A stretch of 64,000 nt of DNA, from assembly GCF_002895005.1 (NCBI RefSeq), contig NZ_POWF01000002.1, positions 372,001 through 436,000 on the forward strand, given 5' to 3'. Below are positions 1 to 19,665 of the stretch, one piece after another; position 1 is the first letter of the stretch; each line of letters starts with the position of its first letter. Both the position numbers and the translations under genes were made by a program. The notes under the pieces are model-generated. The model made no database searches. It was not told where the DNA came from and was given only the letters and a program-made list of their open reading frames with translations. The stretch comes from Hanstruepera neustonica (lineage in GTDB: Bacteria; Bacteroidota; Bacteroidia; Flavobacteriales; Flavobacteriaceae).

Positions 1-2496
1 TGGGTCATCCAAATTAAAGAAACTCAATTGCATCTCATCATCTTTTAACGATTTCACCTTATCAGTCAACTCTTCACTGGAATGCGATTTTTCTAATTTC
101 TTTAATATCTTATTTGCGCGATGAATAACCTGTTGCGGCATTCCTGCCATTTTAGCTACGTGAATACCAAAACTGTGTTCACTACCACCTTCCACAAGCT
201 TACGTAAAAAAAGCACATTATCTTTCAATTCTTTAACCGAAACATTGTAATTTTTGATACGCTCAAATGTTTCCGTCATTTCATTAAGTTCATGATAATG
301 TGTTGCAAACAAGGTTTTAGCTTTCGCTGGATGCTCATGTAAATACTCACTTATGGCCCAAGCAATAGAAATCCCATCATATGTACTAGTACCACGACCA
401 ATTTCATCAAGCAAAACCAAGCTACGTTCAGAAATATTGTTTAGAATAGATGCCGTTTCATTCATCTCCACCATAAAAGTCGATTCGCCCATAGAAATAT
501 TGTCACTGGCACCTACACGGGTAAATATTTTATCAACAAGACCAATTCTCGCCGATTTAGCAGGCACAAAACTCCCCGTTTGTGCCAACAGTACAATAAG
601 GGCTGTTTGACGTAATATAGCCGATTTACCAGACATATTGGGACCTGTAATCATAATCATTTGCTGTTTTTCACGGTCTAAATAGACATCATTGGCAATA
701 TAGGCCTCACTGGGTGGCAACTGCTTTTCGATTACAGGATGACGACCATCTTTGATATCTAAATCAAAGGAATCATCAATTGTTGGATAGGTATAATTAT
801 TATCATTGGCCAATTGCGCAAATCCACACAAACAGTCAAGTTGACCAATTACATGCGCATTTTGTTGGACGGGTTTGATGTATTGGGTCATCCATTGAAT
901 CAATTCCGAAAACAATTGTTGTTCAATAGCCAAAATACGTTCTTCTGCACCTAATATTTTTGCTTCGTATTCTTTAAGTTCTTCGGTAATATATCGTTCC
1001 GCACTAACTAAAGTTTGCTTACGTATCCATTCTTGAGGGACTTTATCCTTGTGAGTATTACGTACTTCGATGTAGTAACCAAACACGTTATTAGATGCTA
1101 TTTTTAAAGAAGTTATTCCGGTGCGTTCACTCTCGCGCTCCAGCATTTTATCTAAATAATCCTTTCCTGAAGTAGACAAAGCACGCAGTTCATCCAGTTC
1201 CATGGAAAAACCTTCGGCAATAGTATGCCCTTTTAATACATTTACAGGTGCATCTTCATTTAAAGTTTCTTTTATTTTTTCACGCAGTAGATCGCAACTT
1301 TGTAAGGTATCACCTATAATATTGAGCGCTTCATTATCGGTATTTGTCGCCAAAGCCTTGATCGGAACAATGGCTTCCAAAGAATTTTTTAGTTGAATAA
1401 CTTCTCTGGGGTTCACTTTCGCAGTTGCAATCTTGGAAATCAAACGCTCCAGATCACCAATGTGCTTGATGTGGTTTTGGATTTTTTGAAGAATGGACTT
1501 GTTCTTGCTTAAAAAGTCAACAACCTCATGACGCTGTTTTATTTTTTTGACATCCTTAAGCGGTAAAGCCAGCCAACGTTTGAGCATGCGCCCACCCATG
1601 GGTGAAATAGTTTTATCAATAACATTCAGCAAGGTTACCGCATTGTTATTAGTAGAATGATAAAGCTCTAAATTCCGAATGGTAAACTTATCCATCCACA
1701 CATAATCATCTTCAGCTATGCGACTAATGGATATGATATGTTGCAACTTGTGATGTTGCGTTTCGCTTAAATAATGTAAGATAGCGCCTGAAGCAATGAT
1801 ACCTTCATATAAATCTTCAATACCATACCCTTTGAGCGTTTTGGTATTGAAATGCTTGATTAGAGTTTCATGGGCATAATCGGTTTGATAGACCCAATCT
1901 TCTAAATAAAAGGTATGAAAATCCTGACCGAAGGTTTCATTGAAATGCATTCTTTTTTGCTTGGAAACCAATATTTCACTTGGGCTAAAATTCTGAAGTA
2001 ATTTATCAATATATTCAGCATTTCCTTGGGAGGTGAGAAATTCACCAGTAGAAATATCTAAAAAAGAAATTCCAATAAAGGTTTTACCAAAATAAACCGA
2101 ACATAAAAAATTATTGGACTTTGATTTCAGCACCTCATCATTCAAAGCAACTCCAGGAGTCACCAATTCAGTTACCCCACGTTTTACAATGGTTTTGGTT
2201 TGTTTGGGATCTTCCAGCTGATCACAAATAGCCACGCGTTCACCAGCTTTAACTAATTTAGGCAAATAGGTGTTTAAGGAATGGTGTGGAAAACCTGCTA
2301 GTTCGGTTTCGCTCTCACTGCCAGCGCCACGTTTGGTGAGAATAATATCCAATATTTTGGCTGTACGCACAGCATCTTCACCAAAAGTTTCATAAAAATC
2401 GCCCACACGAAACAGCAACAGGGCATCAGGATACTTGGCCTTGATGGTATTGTACTGCTTCATTAACGGTGTTTCCTTCTTAACTTTTTTAGCCAA
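1..2496 (-). CDS. mutS: DNA mismatch repair ATPase MutS (3' end outside window)
   Basis: MutS recognises mismatched bases and recruits the repair machinery as an ATP-dependent clamp. The visible 832 codons run in frame to base 1, so only a short C-terminal tail (a few dozen residues, judging from family length) is missing. The N-terminal mismatch-binding part has the family sequence around [16 protein letters not shown], with the Phe-x-Glu mismatch-reading motif. The P-loop GPNMSGKS lies at residues 618-625, followed by a [13 protein letters not shown] Walker B/signature segment. I placed the start on a TTG codon because an in-frame stop lies two codons upstream and the resulting [15 protein letters not shown] start matches what I recall of Bacteroidota MutS; a later in-frame ATG (residue 12) is the alternative. 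It is divergent from the RNA methylase gene. Confidence 0.96.
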
Positions 2497-2518
2497 TGAT
2501 TAACTGATTTTTATATGT

Positions 2519-2526
2519 TACTTTTG
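2519..2526 (+). promoter_or_regulatory. Candidate -7 element upstream of the TrmH-family gene
   Basis: TACTTTTG matches the Bacteroidota -7 consensus TANNTTTG. No good TTTG is seen 17-23 bp upstream, so the call rests on one element. It would give a leader of roughly 85 nt that contains a short self-complementary stretch (AGGTTTT/AAAACCT). Confidence 0.4.
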
Positions 2527-2618
2527 CATAAAATGTAGGATTGCTAAAGTACTTATTAATTTAAGGTTTTTAAAACCTGAAACTTATAAGTTATCTACAA
2601 TTATCATAAGAAATTAAC

Positions 2619-3158
2619 ATGCGTAAATTAAAAAATAGCGAGCTGGACCGATTGAGTGTTGATGAGTTTAAAAACACCGAAAAGACGCCTTTAATTATTG
2701 TTTTGGACAATATCCGGAGTTTAAACAACATTGGATCGGTGTTTAGAACTAGCGATGCTTTTTTAATTGAAAAAATTTATCTCTGCGGTATTACAGCCAA
2801 ACCACCTCATAAAGATATCCACAAAACGGCATTGGGCAGTACCGAAACAGTGGCATGGGAATATGTTACAGACACGCTTGAATTGGTTAAAAAACTTCAA
2901 GCTGAAAACATAACCGTTTGTTCCATTGAACAAGCCGAAAACGCCATGATGCTTAATGACTTTACGCCCAAACCCGACCAAAAATACGCTCTAGTATTCG
3001 GCAATGAGGTCAAGGGTGTCCAGCAAGATGTGGTTTCTAATAGTGATGTTGTTCTGGAGATCCCTCAGTTTGGCACCAAGCATTCCTTAAATATTTCTGT
3101 GAGTTGTGGTGTCGTGGTGTGGGATGTGTTTAGTAAACTAGAAAGTTTGTCATCCTGA
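2619..3158 (+). CDS. SpoU/TrmH-family RNA 2'-O-methyltransferase
   Basis: This 179-residue protein has the full SPOUT methyltransferase core and little else, so it is probably a tRNA or rRNA ribose 2'-O-methylase using S-adenosylmethionine. Motif 1 is NNIGSVFRTSDAF (residues 36-48), motif 2 is YALVFGNEVKGV (about 123-134), and motif 3 is IPQFGTKHSLNIS (148-160), which form the knotted SAM site and dimer interface in the family. There is no N-terminal substrate-binding domain, as in TrmL/TrmH-like short forms; the target nucleotide cannot be read from sequence. The last codons and the stop come from a degenerate dispersed repeat that starts at 3149, so the natural C terminus may once have been different. 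Confidence 0.9.
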   Translation: MRKLKNSELDRLSVDEFKNTEKTPLIIVLDNIRSLNNIGSVFRTSDAFLIEKIYLCGITAKPPHKDIHKTALGSTETVAWEYVTDTLELVKKLQAENITVCSIEQAENAMMLNDFTPKPDQKYALVFGNEVKGVQQDVVSNSDVVLEIPQFGTKHSLNISVSCGVVVWDVFSKLESLSS

Positions 3159-13607: not shown

Positions 13608-14483
13608 TCAATCTTTCTCTTTCAGTTTATCAATAAAATCTTCAGGTGTTGGTAAATAAAAGACCCTTTTATCATTTTTTAATTCATCTATGTTATCAGG
13701 GTTACCTGAAACCCACAATGGTGTGTTTCCAGCATGGGCAAAAAGGTCATCAACTTTAGGTATAATTGTTTTATGAATTGGTGTGACGAACATGGTGAAC
13801 ATGACATCTGGTTTGACATCCTGTAAGACCTGTTTCAAATTGACTATGGGAACATTTTGTCCCAAATAGTAAACTTTCCATCCCATTTTTCTTGCGATAT
13901 AATAAGCAAGTAAAAGACCCAACTCATGGTGCTCATATTCCGTAAGAAACATCACTATTGATGGCGACTCATTTTTTGAATAAGGTAATTGATCAATGGA
14001 CGAGTAAAATCGTTTTTTAATAAGACTTGATATAAAGTGCTCTTGAGCTGGCATCACTTTATCAATTCCCCAAAGCACACCAACCTGATTTAAAAAGGGA
14101 TAGATAATTTGAACGGTAGTAGCTAAAAGACCACGTTTGATTATTTGTTCTTTAAAAATTTGATCAAATGCCCTTTCATCCATATCCAACATGGCTGCAA
14201 TCAGTGCATTTATTTCAGCTTCATGGTGTCCATCTGAAACCTGATTACTAACCGCTTCATGGATTTCAGATTCAGACATTTTATCGATTTTGGAAATCCT
14301 GAAACCGTTTTTTGTCAATAGGCTGATGTTCAAAAGCTTTTTAAGTTGAGCATCTGAATAATACCTAATATTGGTATCAGTCCTTTCGGGTTCTATAATA
14401 TTATATCGTGTTTCCCACTTTCTCAAGGTATGGGCATTGATACCTGTTAAAGTCACGATTTGTGCCATAGTATATTTACTCAT
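13608..14483 (-). CDS. CarH/LitR-like MerR regulator with B12-binding domain
   Basis: The 291-residue protein joins an N-terminal MerR winged helix (residues 4-70, KWETRYNIIEPERT...IRYYSDAQL) to a cobalamin-binding module. The helical cap has W138-x9-E148-H149, the CarH Wx9EH signature that covers the adenosyl group. The B12 loop is E184-x-H186-x-x-G189, the ExHxxG form used by CarH photoreceptors, so H186 is the likely cobalt ligand. In known CarH proteins, adenosyl-B12 in the dark drives tetramer formation and repression of carotenoid genes, and light breaks the complex. The later conserved Gly-Gly is only SGN here. Divergent position next to the crt cluster supports the same role. Confidence 0.9.
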   Translation of the reverse strand: MSKYTMAQIVTLTGINAHTLRKWETRYNIIEPERTDTNIRYYSDAQLKKLLNISLLTKNGFRISKIDKMSESEIHEAVSNQVSDGHHEAEINALIAAMLDMDERAFDQIFKEQIIKRGLLATTVQIIYPFLNQVGVLWGIDKVMPAQEHFISSLIKKRFYSSIDQLPYSKNESPSIVMFLTEYEHHELGLLLAYYIARKMGWKVYYLGQNVPIVNLKQVLQDVKPDVMFTMFVTPIHKTIIPKVDDLFAHAGNTPLWVSGNPDNIDELKNDKRVFYLPTPEDFIDKLKEKD

Positions 14484-14501: not shown

Positions 14502-14509
14502 CAAACTTA
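14502..14509 (-). promoter_or_regulatory. Candidate -7 element of the B12-regulator gene
   Basis: On the minus strand this reads TAAGTTTG (TANNTTTG). A minus-strand copy of the TTGTATAA octamer (14507-14514) overlaps it, so the regulator could control its own gene. The matching upstream element is weak (ATTG). Confidence 0.5.
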
Positions 14510-14548
14510 TACAAAAAAATGAAAGCACACAATTAATAAATAAATTTT

Positions 14549-14608
14549 TTGTCTAATTATTTTGTATAATTATTTGACAATTAAAAAATTATTTATACTT
14601 TTGTCTAA
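14549..14608. promoter_or_regulatory. Tandem repeat operator, probable CarH-type binding region
   Basis: Three direct repeats lie end to end: TTGTCTAATTA (14549), TTGTATAATTA (14562) and TTGACAATTAA (14574), at 13- and 12-bp steps. A fourth TTGTCTAA sits at 14601. Read another way, two 32-bp windows (14549-14580 and 14601-14632) each begin with TTGTC and end with GACAA, 52 bp apart. The third repeat covers the -33 box and the fourth covers the end of the -7 box of the downstream promoter. Tandem direct repeats across a promoter are the operator style of CarH proteins. Confidence 0.7.
14573..14603 (+). promoter_or_regulatory. Promoter of the fasciclin-crt genes
   Basis: TTTG (14573-14576), 19 bp, then TACTTTTG (14596-14603) is a full match to the Bacteroidota core promoter. 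The start of transcription would be near 14609, giving a leader of about 25 nt. Confidence 0.8.
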
Positions 14609-14633
14609 CATATAACATAAAACAATTGACAAA

Positions 14634-16064
14634 ATGAAAACTATTAAAATTACTTTACTATTATTCTGCATGACTTTATTGGGTGTGTCATGTAGTAGTG
14701 ACGACGACAATTCAATACCCTTTAATCCAACCCCACAACAACAAAATATTGTTGAGATTGCCCTAGACACTCCTGAATTATCGACTTTAGTAGCCGCCTT
14801 AACCAGAGCAGATGGAAATTTAGTTGATGTATTAAATGGTGACGGACCCTTCACCGTTTTAGCGCCAACTAACGCTGCATTTACTGCATTTTTGAACCAA
14901 AACGGATTTGCTTCACTGGAGGATGTACCTACTGATGTTCTATCACAAATTTTATTAAACCATGTTATCATGGCTGATGTAACATCTAGTGATTTGGTTG
15001 CCATGGGTGCAGGTTATGCTTCAGGTAGTGCTACCGGCGCTGCTGGAATGAATATTAGCATCTTCTTTGATACTACAAGCGGTGTTAGATTCAACAATGC
15101 TGGCACGGTGACAACTCCAGATATTGACGCTTCTAATGGTACTATACACATCATTAATGGTGTGCTAGGACTTCCAGATATCGTTGACCACGCCATTAAC
15201 AATCCTTCTTTTACAAGTTTGGTAACTGCTCTTGGTGCTGCTGATGGTGATTTGGTTTCCGATTTAAGATTAGATGGCCCTTATACAGTTCTTGCTCCTG
15301 ACAATGATGCGTTTGAAACATTTTTGGATGGCACCCCACTAGGAAGTGTTGACACAGCTGTTTTGAGACAGATTTTATTAAATCATGTGTTATCCGCAGC
15401 AGTTAATTCAGAATTTCTTATTAATGCAGGTGCTGGATATACCAATACGCTAGCCAATGGAGCTGGTGGTAATGCCATGAGCTTGTATTTCAATACAGAC
15501 AATGGTGTCATGTTTAACGGTATTTCTTCTGTGTTTGAAGCTGATGTAGTTGGAACTAATGGTATTATTCATGCTGTTGATGCTGTAATTGGCTTACCAA
15601 CTGTGGTGACATTTGCTGCTGCTGACCCAAACTTCAGCACTTTAGTTTCTGCCTTAACAGACTTGACTCCAGGAACCGACTTTGTAGAAATACTTTCCAG
15701 AACATCAGGAAGTAATGCTGATGGTATTAATCCCGATTATACTGTTTTTGCCCCGACCAATGACGCTTTTGATGCCCTAATTGAGGACCTTGGAGGTGTT
15801 CCAGACGAATCTACCCTAACTCAAGTATTATTATACCATGTTGCTAGTGAAGCTAATGTGACATCTGGTGATTTAATGCCAGGAGCTAATCCAGTCACTT
15901 CTTTGCAAGGAGGATCATTTACTCTTAATGTTCCAGGAACTGGAGACAACATTGCTGATATAACTGATGGTTCTGGAGCTACAGATATTGGTGTTGTTGC
16001 TGTTGATGTTCAAGCAGCTAACGGCGTCATACATGTACTCAACAAGGTTATGTTACCAAACTAA
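14634..16064 (+). CDS. Lipoprotein with three fasciclin (FAS1) domains
   Basis: The 476-residue protein has a lipoprotein signal (GVSC, lipid Cys20) and three tandem FAS1 domains at about 38-175, 178-316 and 317-475. Each carries the family H1 block (GPFTVLAPTNAAF, GPYTVLAPDNDAF, DYTVFAPTNDAF) and the H2 block ending in NG(I/T)IH. FAS1 domains mediate adhesion; some bind hydrophobic ligands. The mature N terminus has a Ser-Ser-Asp-Asp-Asp run, often a signal for surface export of Bacteroidota lipoproteins. It is the first gene after the repeat operator and upstream of crtI, so it is probably co-regulated with carotenoid synthesis; a carotenoid-handling role is conjecture. Confidence 0.9.
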   Translation: MKTIKITLLLFCMTLLGVSCSSDDDNSIPFNPTPQQQNIVEIALDTPELSTLVAALTRADGNLVDVLNGDGPFTVLAPTNAAFTAFLNQNGFASLEDVPTDVLSQILLNHVIMADVTSSDLVAMGAGYASGSATGAAGMNISIFFDTTSGVRFNNAGTVTTPDIDASNGTIHIINGVLGLPDIVDHAINNPSFTSLVTALGAADGDLVSDLRLDGPYTVLAPDNDAFETFLDGTPLGSVDTAVLRQILLNHVLSAAVNSEFLINAGAGYTNTLANGAGGNAMSLYFNTDNGVMFNGISSVFEADVVGTNGIIHAVDAVIGLPTVVTFAAADPNFSTLVSALTDLTPGTDFVEILSRTSGSNADGINPDYTVFAPTNDAFDALIEDLGGVPDESTLTQVLLYHVASEANVTSGDLMPGANPVTSLQGGSFTLNVPGTGDNIADITDGSGATDIGVVAVDVQAANGVIHVLNKVMLPN

Positions 16065-16199: not shown

Positions 16200-17669
16200 A
16201 TGTCTTCTAAAAACATAATCATAATTGGATCGGGATTTTCATCCTTGTCGGCAGCATGTTATCTTGCAAATAGTGGACATCATGTTACTGTTTTAGAAAA
16301 AAACGAAACAGTCGGTGGGCGCGCCCGCCAATTAAAAAAAGATGGTTTTACATTTGATATAGGGCCTACGTTTTATTGGATGCCTGATGTTTTTGAGCGA
16401 TTCTTCAATGATTTTAATAAATCCACAAAAGATTATTATAAATTAGAAAAACTCAATCCAGCCTATCAAATATACTTTGGAAAAGATGATTCAGTTAGTA
16501 TTTCTGATAATCTTGAAAACATTAAAGAAACATTCGAATCCATTGAGCCAGGAAGTGGTAAAAATTTACAAAAGTTTATTGACAAGGCTCAAATAAACTA
16601 TAACATAGCTATAAAAGATTTAGTTTATAAGCCTGGTGAAAATATTTTCGAAATTATCAATGGTAAAACATTTTTGAAACTTCATGAGTTTATTCAAACT
16701 ATCAAAAATCAAGTATCTGGTTATGTGAAAAATGAAAAATTACAAAAGATACTAGAATTTCCAGTTTTATTCCTAGGGGCGAAACCAAGTAACACACCGT
16801 CTTTCTATAATTTCATGAATTATGCAGACTTTAAACTTGGGACTTGGCATCCAAAAGGTGGCATGTATCAAGTTGTTCAAGCCATGACGAATCTAGCAAC
16901 TACTCTAGGCGTCAAGATTCTAACCAATTCGGAAGTAAGAACGATAGAATTATCAGGTGATAAAGTTTCGCATGTAATAACCGATTCAGATTATTTTGAT
17001 TGTGATATTTTGTTAAGCGGTGCAGATTACCATCATACTGAATCGCTTTTACCTCAAAAGTTCAGGCAATATTCGGAATCCTTTTGGGATAAAAAAACGT
17101 TTGCGCCTTCAGCCTTATTATTCTATGTTGGTTTTAATAAAAAGCTCAAGAACGTCTCTCATCACACCTTGTTTTTTGATACCGATTTTGAAGCACATGC
17201 CAAAACCATTTATGATACCAAAGAATGGGCTGAAAAACCATTGTTCTATGCCAGTTTTCCGAGTATAACAGATGATTCATCTGCACCAAAAGATAAAGAA
17301 GCTGGTATTTTCCTTATTCCGATTGCTCCAGATATTGAGGACACTCAAGCCATTAGAGAACGTTATTTTGATCAACTTATAACCAGATTGGAAACTATTA
17401 CAGGAGAAGCCGTTAGAGAACATATTTTGTTCAAAGAATCTTACTGTGTTAAAGATTTTAAAGAAGACTACCATTCCTATAAAGGCAATGCTTATGGTTT
17501 AGCTAACACCTTAATGCAAACGCACATCTTAAGGCCTAAATTAAAAAGTAAAAAAGTATCGAACTTATATTTCTGTGGCCAGTTAACGGTTCCTGGACCA
17601 GGAGTTCCACCTTCTCTTATTTCTGGCAAAATTGTCAGTGACTTAATCAATAAATATCACAAACTATGA
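16200..17669 (+). CDS. crtI: Phytoene desaturase CrtI
   Basis: The 489-residue FAD enzyme desaturates phytoene to lycopene. The dinucleotide-binding fold is at the start (IIIGSGFSSLSAACYLA, residues 7-23, then a Glu ending the second strand and GGRAR). The C-terminal FAD signature FCGQLTVPGPGVPPSLISGK is present near residue 460. Length and sequence fit the bacterial CrtI type, not CrtN or carotenoid ketolases. The stop overlaps the crtB start (ATGA), so the two are translationally coupled. Confidence 0.95.
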   Translation: MSSKNIIIIGSGFSSLSAACYLANSGHHVTVLEKNETVGGRARQLKKDGFTFDIGPTFYWMPDVFERFFNDFNKSTKDYYKLEKLNPAYQIYFGKDDSVSISDNLENIKETFESIEPGSGKNLQKFIDKAQINYNIAIKDLVYKPGENIFEIINGKTFLKLHEFIQTIKNQVSGYVKNEKLQKILEFPVLFLGAKPSNTPSFYNFMNYADFKLGTWHPKGGMYQVVQAMTNLATTLGVKILTNSEVRTIELSGDKVSHVITDSDYFDCDILLSGADYHHTESLLPQKFRQYSESFWDKKTFAPSALLFYVGFNKKLKNVSHHTLFFDTDFEAHAKTIYDTKEWAEKPLFYASFPSITDDSSAPKDKEAGIFLIPIAPDIEDTQAIRERYFDQLITRLETITGEAVREHILFKESYCVKDFKEDYHSYKGNAYGLANTLMQTHILRPKLKSKKVSNLYFCGQLTVPGPGVPPSLISGKIVSDLINKYHKL

Positions 17670-18502
17670 AAGCATTATTTGACAAATCAAGTTTAAAATG
17701 CAGTAAAATTGTAACCAATTCATACAGCACGTCATTTTCACTTGGTATAAAACTATTTGCTCCTTCAATCAGGCCAGCCATTTATGCCATTTATGGTTTT
17801 GTGCGCTATGCTGACGAAATAGTTGATTCATTTGAAAACTACGATCAAAGTGAACTATTCAAAGATTTTGTTGATGAATATCATAAATCTTTGGAACGAA
17901 AAATAAGTCTAAACCCTATTATAAATTCGTTTCAAGAAGTAGCCAGACATTACAAGCTAGAAACCTACGCTGAAGACTTCCTAAAGCGCATGGAAGCTGA
18001 CTTGTATGTTTCAGATTATACTACCCAAGAAGATTATGAGAATTATATTTATGGGTCTGCTGATGTTGTTGGACTCATGTGTTTACGGGTTTTTGTAAAT
18101 AATGATGAAGAAAAATTCAACGATTTGAAACACGCAGCTAAACATTTAGGGTCTGCGTTCCAAAAAGTTAATTTTTTAAGGGATTTTAAAGATGATACTG
18201 AAAAACTTGGCAGATCCTATTTCCCGAACTTATCCAGTAATGCGTTGAATAATGTTTCGAAAAAAGAAATTGTTCAAGATATCGAACAGGATTTGCATAT
18301 AGCCTACAAAGGAATCATTCAACTACCCATGGAAAGCAAGCTTGGCGTTTATATTGCTTATAGATACTATTTAAAGTTACTTAAAAAACTAAAAAAAGCT
18401 GATTCAAAAAAAATTGCAACCGAACGCATCAGAATTTCAAACGGATTGAAATTGTTCATACTAACCAAATCCTACATTAGATATAAATTACATGCTTTTT
18501 AA
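17666..18502 (+). CDS. crtB: Phytoene synthase CrtB
   Basis: The 278-residue prenyl synthase joins two geranylgeranyl diphosphates into phytoene. The first Asp-rich motif is D50-EIV-D54 and the second is in NFLRDFKDD; both bind Mg-diphosphate in the squalene/phytoene synthase family. The protein starts inside the crtI stop. Together with crtI it supplies lycopene to the cyclase two genes downstream. Confidence 0.95.
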   Translation: MKALFDKSSLKCSKIVTNSYSTSFSLGIKLFAPSIRPAIYAIYGFVRYADEIVDSFENYDQSELFKDFVDEYHKSLERKISLNPIINSFQEVARHYKLETYAEDFLKRMEADLYVSDYTTQEDYENYIYGSADVVGLMCLRVFVNNDEEKFNDLKHAAKHLGSAFQKVNFLRDFKDDTEKLGRSYFPNLSSNALNNVSKKEIVQDIEQDLHIAYKGIIQLPMESKLGVYIAYRYYLKLLKKLKKADSKKIATERIRISNGLKLFILTKSYIRYKLHAF

Positions 18503-18529
18503 TAAGCTTAAATTTTCTTACATTACAAT

Positions 18530-18985
18530 ATGCAGATTCTTTTATTTATCATAATAACTTTGGCAACGTTTTTCTTAATGGAACTCATTACATGGTTCAC
18601 TCATAAGTACATTATGCATGGGTTTCTATGGTATTTGCATGAAGATCACCATCAGCCAAAATACCCCCATGTTTTTGAAAAAAACGATGCTTTTTTCGTG
18701 ATTTTTGCCATTCCCAGTATCTTATTGTTCTATTTTGGATTAGTTCCCGAACTTAATTTCATGTTTTTCATTGGTCTTGGTATCTTCTTTTATGGTGTAA
18801 CCTATTTTTTGGTTCATGATGTTTTAATCCATCAGCGCTTTAAGTGGTTTAAACACACTAAAAATAAATTTTTACTAGGTTTGAGAAAAGCCCACAAAGT
18901 TCATCATAAGCATTTAGGAAAAGAAGATGGTGAGTGTTTTGGAATGCTTTATGTTCCAAAAAAATATCATGACCAATACAAATAA
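18530..18985 (+). CDS. crtZ: Beta-carotene hydroxylase CrtZ
   Basis: The 151-residue membrane di-iron hydroxylase converts beta-carotene to zeaxanthin. It has the expected histidine clusters: H25-x4-H30, H37EDHH41, H96-x4-H101 and H122-x2-H125H126. The hydrophobic segments (1-22, 55-92) embed the di-iron site in the membrane. Its stop overlaps the crtY start by one base (TAATG). Confidence 0.94.
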   Translation: MQILLFIIITLATFFLMELITWFTHKYIMHGFLWYLHEDHHQPKYPHVFEKNDAFFVIFAIPSILLFYFGLVPELNFMFFIGLGIFFYGVTYFLVHDVLIHQRFKWFKHTKNKFLLGLRKAHKVHHKHLGKEDGECFGMLYVPKKYHDQYK

Positions 18986-19665
18986 TGAAATCCTTTACTT
19001 ATCTTTTGGTTAATCTGGCATGTATAAGCATACCCTTATTTGCTAGCTTTTATCCAAAAAAACCTTTTTACAGAGAATGGAAATCATTTTTCAAGGCTAA
19101 TATTTTAGTAGCCATAATCTTTTTAATTTGGGACTATTGGTTTACTGAAATTGGGGTTTGGGGATTTAATAATGATTATGTAACTGGAATTTATTTAGGA
19201 GTTATCCCTTTAGAGGAAATCCTATTTTTTATTTGTATTCCTTTTTGTTGTGTTTTCAGTTATTTCGCATTTAAATTCCTAATCAAGAAGAATCCCATTG
19301 AAAAACTACAACATATTATTTCCTATGCTCTAATTGGCATTTTATTAATTACAGCAATCATTTACTACAATAGGCTCTATACGTCCATAACATTTTTTAG
19401 TGCCAGTTTCTATTTGATATATTTGATCATTAAAAAGAAAGATCTTTCTTATCATTATTTGAGTTACTTATTTATTTTCCCATTTTTTATTTTGAGCAAT
19501 GGAGTTCTAACAGGAAGCTTCCTTGTTGAACCTATAGTCTGGTATAATGATCTAGAAAATTTGGGTATCAGGTTGTTCAACATCCCAATTGAAGATACTA
19601 TTTACGGTTTATTGCTGATCCTCATGAATATTGAGGGTTATGAATATTTTAAATCTAAAGCATAA
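18985..19665 (+). CDS. Lycopene beta-cyclase, heterodimer-type domains fused (CrtYcd)
   Basis: The 226-residue polytopic protein contains two copies of the lycopene cyclase domain that actinobacteria encode separately as crtYc and crtYd. The conserved acidic motif occurs twice: PLEE (75-78) in the first half and PIED (201-204) in the second. This fused cyclase is the usual type in Flavobacteriia. Last gene of the cluster, so the predicted end product of the visible genes is zeaxanthin; no ketolase or glycosyltransferase is visible. Confidence 0.9.
   Translation: MKSFTYLLVNLACISIPLFASFYPKKPFYREWKSFFKANILVAIIFLIWDYWFTEIGVWGFNNDYVTGIYLGVIPLEEILFFICIPFCCVFSYFAFKFLIKKNPIEKLQHIISYALIGILLITAIIYYNRLYTSITFFSASFYLIYLIIKKKDLSYHYLSYLFIFPFFILSNGVLTGSFLVEPIVWYNDLENLGIRLFNIPIEDTIYGLLLILMNIEGYEYFKSKA

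Follow-up and report, generated by a model that had tools for sequence, protein, structure and literature searches.

Inverted-pair operators predicted for a CarH/LitR-like regulator at a divergent fasciclin-carotenoid promoter region in Bacteroidota

How would a CarH/LitR-like regulator recognise its DNA in Bacteroidota? CarH is a model B12 photoreceptor, and its signature is binding to tandem direct repeats. In Hanstruepera neustonica, a gene for a CarH/LitR-like protein stands back to back with a fasciclin gene and a block of carotenoid (crt) genes, and the spacer between them contains several similar short repeats. We analysed a 64,000-nucleotide stretch of this genome (3.05 Mb; G000), referred to here as the window, together with homologous loci from related genomes. 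The original prediction read the repeats in the spacer as a tandem operator across the fasciclin-crt promoter. The features that bear on this reading are listed below, with O1, O2 and O3 denoting putative operators.

13608-14483, minus strand: CarH/LitR-like regulator, 291 aa
14482-14514: O3, ATGTCTAG-N17-TTATACAA, a weaker inverted pair of 33 bp that reaches from the start codon of the carH-like gene (14481-14483) to the -7 box of that gene
14502-14532, minus strand: carH-like promoter TTG-N20-TAAGTTTG, predicted from sequence
14549-14559: first repeat of the original prediction, TTGTCTAATTA
14549-14580: O1, inverted pair TTGTCTAA-N16-TTTGACAA, span 32 bp, its right half (14573-14580) containing the -33 TTTG
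14562-14572, plus strand: second repeat, TTGTATAATTA, judged accidental (TTGT present here in 2 of 31 spacers)
14573-14603, plus strand: fasciclin-crt promoter TTTG-N19-TACTTTTG, Bacteroidota type, predicted from sequence
14574-14584: third repeat, TTGACAATTAA
14601-14608: fourth repeat, TTGTCTAA
14601-14632: O2, inverted pair TTGTCTAA-N16-ATTGACAA, span 32 bp
14634-16064, plus strand: three-domain fasciclin lipoprotein-like gene, first under the promoter
16200-19665, plus strand: carotenoid genes, whole block
16200-17669, plus strand: crtI-like
17666-18502, plus strand: crtB (SQS_PSY)
18530-18985, plus strand: crtZ-like, so called by position alone, with no Pfam or NCBIfam match
18985-19665, plus strand: lycopene cyclase

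All repeat strings and coordinates of the original prediction proved correct when the window sequence was rechecked. The repeats it called end-to-end are not contiguous: successive starts are spaced by 13 and 12 bp, which leaves 2 and 1 bases between neighbouring repeats. Tandem Repeats Finder returned a weak 13-bp array in the spacer (2.6 copies, score 52). An alternative reading had also been offered, in which two 32-bp windows (14549-14580 and 14601-14632, starts 52 bp apart) each read TTGTC...GACAA; these pairs are present as described, and in 30 of 31 loci. A third pair, O3, had been overlooked. The half-site unit is 8 bp (TTGTCTAA/TTAGACAA) with a TnnACA core, the core centres of a pair are ~24 bp apart, and the pair spans 32-33 bp. 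This core, a known feature of CarH operators, is present in the halves of O1, O2 and O3.

Bacteroidota promoters have a consensus of TTTG ~19 bp ahead of TAnnTTTG, and a 19-bp spacer is ordinary among them. The fasciclin-crt promoter fits this pattern and is exactly as predicted: TTTG at 14573-14576, N19 at 14577-14595 and TACTTTTG at 14596-14603. Overlap with promoter elements is another known CarH operator feature, and here O1 holds the -33 TTTG while O2 holds the end of the -7 box, the inner halves of the two pairs thus having TTG in common with both boxes. The left half of O2 starts with the TTG of the -7 box, and its right half stops one base before the fasciclin ATG (14634).

We compared 31 spacers beside regulators of the same close type, from 29 genomes of 19 genera (the window genome among them) and two named contigs (L003, L004). 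Apart from the window itself, the regulators are 45-84% identical to the window protein; L001 and L002 were excluded as duplicates of G003 and G001, and a distant locus with no site (G055_L012) was counted in the 32-locus spectra below and left out of the 31-locus counts. Requiring at least 12 of 16 consensus bases per pair and at least 5 of 8 per half, we found the O1+O2 pair of pairs in 30/31 loci, against 0/980 random 230-bp windows of the same loci, although the relatives are not independent samples in this or the covariation counts below. The original prediction of an operator-like element that spans a promoter of the Bacteroidota type next to a CarH-like gene is borne out, and the element is kept in relatives. 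Comparison of homologous spacers, proposed there as a check with lack of conservation as the refuting outcome, does away with its three tandem direct repeats and upholds its inverted-pair reading: the middle repeat (14562) is kept in 2 of the 31 spacers; likewise, TTGT occurs 11-15 bp past the start of the first repeat in 2/31. The consensus kept is approximately TTGTCYAA-N16/17-TTNGACAA. O2 starts 51-54 bp after O1, and exactly 52 bp after it in 18 of 30 loci. A TAnnTTTG box whose TTG opens a half-site is present in 28/31 spacers (with a TTG 18-21 bp upstream in 24), and a pair at the O3 position, over the regulator's start codon and -7 box, in 23/31.

The span of the pairs emerged when it was left free. 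In distance spectra compared with dinucleotide shuffles, inward-facing pairs were found at 32 bp in 23/32 loci (shuffle 0.00) and at 33 bp in 18/32 (shuffle 0.05), while direct copies of the half-site lay 52 bp apart in 19/32 loci and 13 bp apart in 2/32. Inward pairs with the exact core at exactly 32 bp were present in 22/31 close-type loci (shuffle 0.12). An outward pair of 36 bp, formed by the inner halves in 20/32 loci, was considered as the unit and rejected: single sites elsewhere are the 32-bp inward pair, and the outward pair is explained by the fixed spacing of the two promoter boxes. Because O1 lies on the upstream side of the promoter's -7 box, a leader RNA element was set aside.

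Two sets of more distant loci were then available for comparison. In 22 loci with regulators 34-42% identical to the window protein, exact-core inward pairs at 32 bp were found in 13 (shuffle 0.02); their half-sites are mostly TTGTTCAW/TTAAACAA and mostly placed at the regulator start codon. A second set of 60 loci came from 69 CarH matches in a search of 296 Bacteroidota genomes, nine matches being left out (G000, G036 and G005, already in the first set; G484, G579, G343, G187, G650; and one of two in G583). Here the pair was present at 32 bp in 30/60 loci (shuffle 0.03) and at 33 bp in 7/60 (shuffle 0.10); 24/60 had no exact-core 32- or 33-bp pair near the CarH-like gene. Pairs of 33 bp are also seen on two Persicobacter plasmids (Cytophagales). 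The fixed span of 32-33 bp stands out against dinucleotide shuffles, and there was no peak at 21-22 bp in the close, distant or second-set loci.

The same loci speak to whether the spacer carries a classical CarH operator, with at least three tandem direct repeats bound head to tail by a tetramer. Two TnnACA cores at an 11-bp step were found in 0/31, 1/22 and 6/60 loci (shuffle means 0.8, 0.37 and 2.6, so that the last is slightly above chance), and three at 11-bp steps in 0/31, 0/22 and 0/60. As a positive control, the same test recovered three 11-bp repeats in T. thermophilus HB8 and two in T. brockianus.

Whole genomes were searched for TTGTCTAA-N16-TTAGACAA with at most one mismatch. The 29 genomes with a close-type regulator had 50 sites, compared with 6 for the reversed pattern; 24 genomes lacking such a regulator had 8, compared with 3. 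The crt spacer holds 17 of the 50. Of the other 33, by our assignment, three fall in coding sequence and five at miscellaneous intergenic positions. Seven go with ABC1 kinase genes, six of which follow a TetR_C_23-like gene, five with fasciclin genes, four with folE operons and three with photolyase operons whose first gene is small and SRPBCC-like. An SDR/DUF2867 protein and a small gene without a name account for two each, and a CIA30-SDR-SRPBCC-like operon and a GLPGLI-type (Porph_ging) gene for one each. Pfam, run on 30 proteins from these loci, confirmed the fasciclin (5/5), photolyase (3/3), folE (4/4) and DUF2867 (2/2) assignments and 3/7 of the ABC1 assignments, the other ABC1 genes being assigned from near-identical gene starts. 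A 165-aa protein at target loci, which we take to be of the SRPBCC type, had no NCBIfam match; in Pfam, one SRPBCC-like protein matched Polyketide_cyc below the cut-off and another (L128) had no match. A small gene at target loci, presumably TIGR03643, likewise had no NCBIfam match. Of the eight sites in genomes without the close type, four are in coding sequence, one coincides with a gene start and one is upstream of a gene of unknown kind; the remaining two, ahead of photolyase-like and fasciclin-like genes (L082, L084), count against the operator model below. The window genome has three further sites, ahead of a fasciclin gene (C12:56106), ahead of a small gene followed by SDR and TspO (C13:129759), and ahead of a TetR_C_23-ABC1 pair (C14:132586).

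Genomes with the distant regulator type gave a similar picture with their own half-site. TTGTTYAW-N16-TTRAACAA had 50 forward matches in 24 such genomes and one in the control. At the 20 loci that were read, sites precede crtI-like genes (5), fasciclin genes (4), photolyase, SDR/DUF2867 and TspO genes and the regulator itself, among others; this reading covered one strand, with Pfam run on 10 proteins and without rows for L134, L136 and L143. With the gap left free between 8 and 24 bp, span 32 accounted for 43/70 matches in the distant-type genomes, and spans 32 and 33 for 34/67 and 8/67 in the 29 close-type genomes. Forward matches exceeded the reversed control by 70 to 8 in the distant type and by 56 to 29 in the close type; since the latter total is only about twice its control, the close-type excess lies in the 32-33-bp spans. 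Of the 296 Bacteroidota genomes, 43 contain both the motif and a CarH-like gene, 11 only the motif, 18 only the gene and 224 neither (Fisher p 4.5e-27, without kinship correction); the exact motif is thus missing in 18 of the 61 genomes that have the gene. At sites outside the crt spacer, the TTG of a -7 box is common to the site in 10/29 close-type and 7/19 distant-type cases (L087 omitted), compared with 45/743 background TTGTNNA words, which makes promoter sharing common but not general.

Several loci among these sites deserve mention on their own. In G162, a second cobalamin-adenosyltransferase-like gene (L101, G162:C3:512400-516500; 2132-2707, minus strand) lies beside a perfect 32-bp site; it was considered as a target and rejected, as the site precedes the next small unnamed gene and the PF01923 match is weak (28.9 bits). 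Elsewhere in this genome (L103, G162:C5:430100-434200), a distant-type MerR gene stands directly ahead of crtI and crtB, from which it is separated by a 32-bp site of the TTGTC type, and a close-type regulator is encoded at C5:107006, so two CarH-like regulators possibly act on one regulon in this genome. Sites at L041/L113 (G001:C6:161933-161965) and L121 lie ahead of GLPGLI-type (Porph_ging) genes, for which a link to light is not obvious; one of these sites, a 33-bp pair without mismatch, has such a gene on either side. For both regulator types, the predicted targets repeatedly include fasciclin genes, one of which heads the carotenoid cluster.

Which protein reads these sites? Residue 22 of the regulator (query position 21 without the Met; helix LR[x]WE; Lys22 in the window protein) tracks base 5 of the half-site, TTGT[x]. 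In loci with exact-core pairs, Lys goes with C in 23/23 and other residues go with C in 1/51; the lone non-Lys locus with C (L066) is a tie, as is L014, which was counted as T. The association is strong by Fisher's test (2.9e-18, without kinship correction), and the signal is mostly one split between the two regulator types. Looser matching adds three close-type loci with Ile or Val that shift towards T, one of them evenly split, and two distant loci with Thr whose half-site base is A. A Lys protein from another family of the class (L201) also has C. O3 departs from this rule: in Lys loci, its right half often reads TTAAACAA. In metal-sensing MerR proteins, Lys in the recognition helix goes with C/G (excerpt of PMC5045206). 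Chiefly from this covariation, the CarH-like protein itself is likely the reader of the paired sites. Thr at the helix position together with TTGTA half-sites, seen at L022 and L028, may represent a third specificity class.

By domains and ligand residues, the window protein belongs with CarH/LitR, below NCBI's cut-off for the CarH equivalog: NF052513 is its best NCBIfam match, at 101.5 bits where 400 are required. Pfam finds MerR_1 (59.5 bits) and B12-binding_2 (37.8 bits) above cut-off, and the best solved relatives are T. thermophilus CarH structures (E ~1e-17). The C-terminal Rossmann B12-binding domain gave no Pfam match at 0.001, yet the CarH alignment passes the ligand His and GxxxP to residue 220. 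The residues for AdoCbl light sensing in CarH/LitR are described as GxxWx9EH, ExH and GxxxP (excerpts of PMC11796333 and PMC8156234), and the window protein carries GVLW-x9-EH, EHH and GQNVP. W, E and H of Wx9EH are present in 29/29 close-type sequences and in 22, 22 and 21 of 22 distant-type sequences, respectively, and the ligand His in 29/29 and 21/22. All 29 genomes with a close regulator encode a member of the adenosyltransferase family PF01923. In the DNA-binding domain, the Bacteroidota proteins have TNIR (Asn and Arg in 51/51 sequences) where T. thermophilus CarH has GGHR. MliR of Bizionia argentinensis was considered as the same regulator and rejected; as described in the excerpt available, it has 109 residues and no effector domain.

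On these grounds we think it quite probable that the spacer controls the genes on both sides through three inverted-pair operators for the adjacent CarH/LitR-like B12-type regulator, which would act as a dark repressor released by light. At the fasciclin-crt promoter, O1 would cover the -33 box and the DNA upstream of it, and O2 the stretch that holds the -7 box, start region and leader; O3 would cover the -7 box and start codon of the regulator gene itself. AdoCbl-bound regulator sitting on O1-O3 in the dark would keep RNA polymerase from the shared TTG elements. In the light, AdoCbl would be broken and the regulator released, switching on the fasciclin-crt genes, the regulator gene and photoprotection genes elsewhere that have the same site. 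Such occlusion and release is the likeliest use of O1 and O2, because they flank the promoter spacer and are not centred in it. With an offset of 52 bp, about five turns, the two operators would lie on the same side of the helix; the geometry of the promoter fixes this offset too. A more detailed model, to which we give about an even chance, is that one AdoCbl-bound dimer clamps two inverted TnnACA halves with centres 24 bp (~2.3 turns) apart, that a second clamp, some five turns from the first, helps it to hold the -33 and -7 boxes on the same side of the DNA, that Lys, Ile/Val or Thr sets base 5 as C, T or A, and that a class-wide light regulon comprises carotenoid, photolyase, pterin, ABC1-kinase, TspO and fasciclin genes.

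Other explanations fare less well. That the same inverted pairs serve a regulator that activates, in light or in dark, is unlikely: occlusion better suits operators that flank the spacer, are not centred in it, and extend over the -7 box, leader and start codons, and N19 is an ordinary spacer for Bacteroidota promoters. In its favour, MerR proteins are often activators at promoters with 19-20-bp spacers (excerpt of PMC5045206), and the window promoter has N19. A tandem operator of the CarH kind would explain the three similar 11-mers in a row in the window genome, and known CarH operators are tandem 11-bp repeats (excerpt of PMC9304148). The steps in the window are 13 and 12 bp, however, the middle repeat is confined to 2/31 spacers, and two TnnACA cores at 11 bp are as scarce as given above (0/31, 1/22, 6/60) with three found nowhere, though the test finds them in T. 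thermophilus HB8; this explanation is highly improbable.

We regard it as improbable, too, that the palindromes are read by a different regulator, such as the TetR_C_23 protein encoded with the ABC1 kinase, with the CarH-like gene merely a target. The TetR_C_23-ABC1 pair is indeed a recurrent target, but base 5 of the half-site follows the recognition-helix residue of the CarH-like protein, the motif co-occurs with the CarH-like gene, and the half-site has CarH's TnnACA core. Finally, TTG belongs to both promoter boxes and the spacer is A+T rich, so the pairs might reflect conserved promoter elements and no operator at all. This is hardly credible given that conservation extends beyond the boxes to the outer halves of O1 and O2, that the span is fixed at 32-33 bp relative to dinucleotide shuffles, and that sites exceed reversed patterns genome-wide.

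The repressor model with inverted-pair operators would have consequences for the CarH family. The Bacteroidota branch seems to put the same half-site core into inverted 32-bp pairs, which implies either that the known CarH assembly is more flexible than thought or that the Bacteroidota proteins assemble differently. Among the literature matches listed (titles and starts of abstracts), we found no account of a Bacteroidota CarH/LitR operator or regulon, and we judge the operator arrangement, with its predicted Bacteroidota light regulon, to be new within CarH/LitR photoregulation. The clamp mode suggested for the Bacteroidota proteins may be one not described for the CarH family in the literature examined. 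Light-induced carotenoids are reported in a flavobacterial species, the regulator of which is given as unknown in the available excerpt of PMC7064467. The analysis supplies a candidate regulator, together with its putative site, its predicted targets and a proposed specificity rule that hinges on one residue.

How does this system compare with known ones? The operators of the MerR-family activators CueR, MerR and CadR (excerpt of PMC5045206) also have inverted half-sites, with a recognition-helix Lys that goes with C/G. Those sites are 21-22 bp long and keep a constant position with respect to the -35 box, whereas the window sites are 32-33 bp and flank the spacer; O1 and O2 do not have the activator form of a 21-22-bp palindrome next to -35 within a 19-20-bp-spacer promoter. 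The class II LitR proteins of Pseudomonas (PplR1, PmlR2) offer a parallel in their targets, as photolyase and GTP cyclohydrolase I (folE) are light-induced in a LitR-dependent manner (excerpt of PMC9758184). The Bacteroidota system resembles theirs in its MerR/LitR regulator, in photolyase and folE as predicted targets and in the broad stretch of promoter covered, seen in Pseudomonas as a footprint; class II LitR differs in its consensus, T(G/A)TACA and TGTACA, and is described in the same excerpt as lacking full B12 binding and working with a LOV protein.

Inversion as such has precedent in CarA of Myxococcus xanthus, for which two inverted repeats, upstream of and overlapping -35, are reported to bind two dimers over ~55 bp (excerpt of PMC9304148). 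The window likewise has two inverted repeats at the promoter, but these are pairs of 32 bp that together extend over 84 bp, O2 covers the -7 box and leader, and the half-site is TTGTCTAA. The CarA repeats are reported to be degenerate in most relatives (same excerpt), in contrast to the pairs kept in 30/31 spacers here. The CarH operators of Thermus thermophilus, Bacillus megaterium and myxobacteria are tandem 11-bp direct repeats with a TnnACA core (excerpts of PMC9304148 and PMC8156234), and the tandem feature is absent from the Bacteroidota loci, with three such repeats in 0/31, 0/22 and 0/60. What the two have in common is the core, the overlap with promoter elements, and a divergent regulator beside carotenoid or photolyase genes (in Thermus). 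The original prediction drew on the tandem CarH operators found elsewhere; set against those of Thermus and myxobacteria, the likeness holds for the half-site core and not for the arrangement, since the conserved unit here is an inverted pair with a 32-33-bp span and core centres 24 bp apart.
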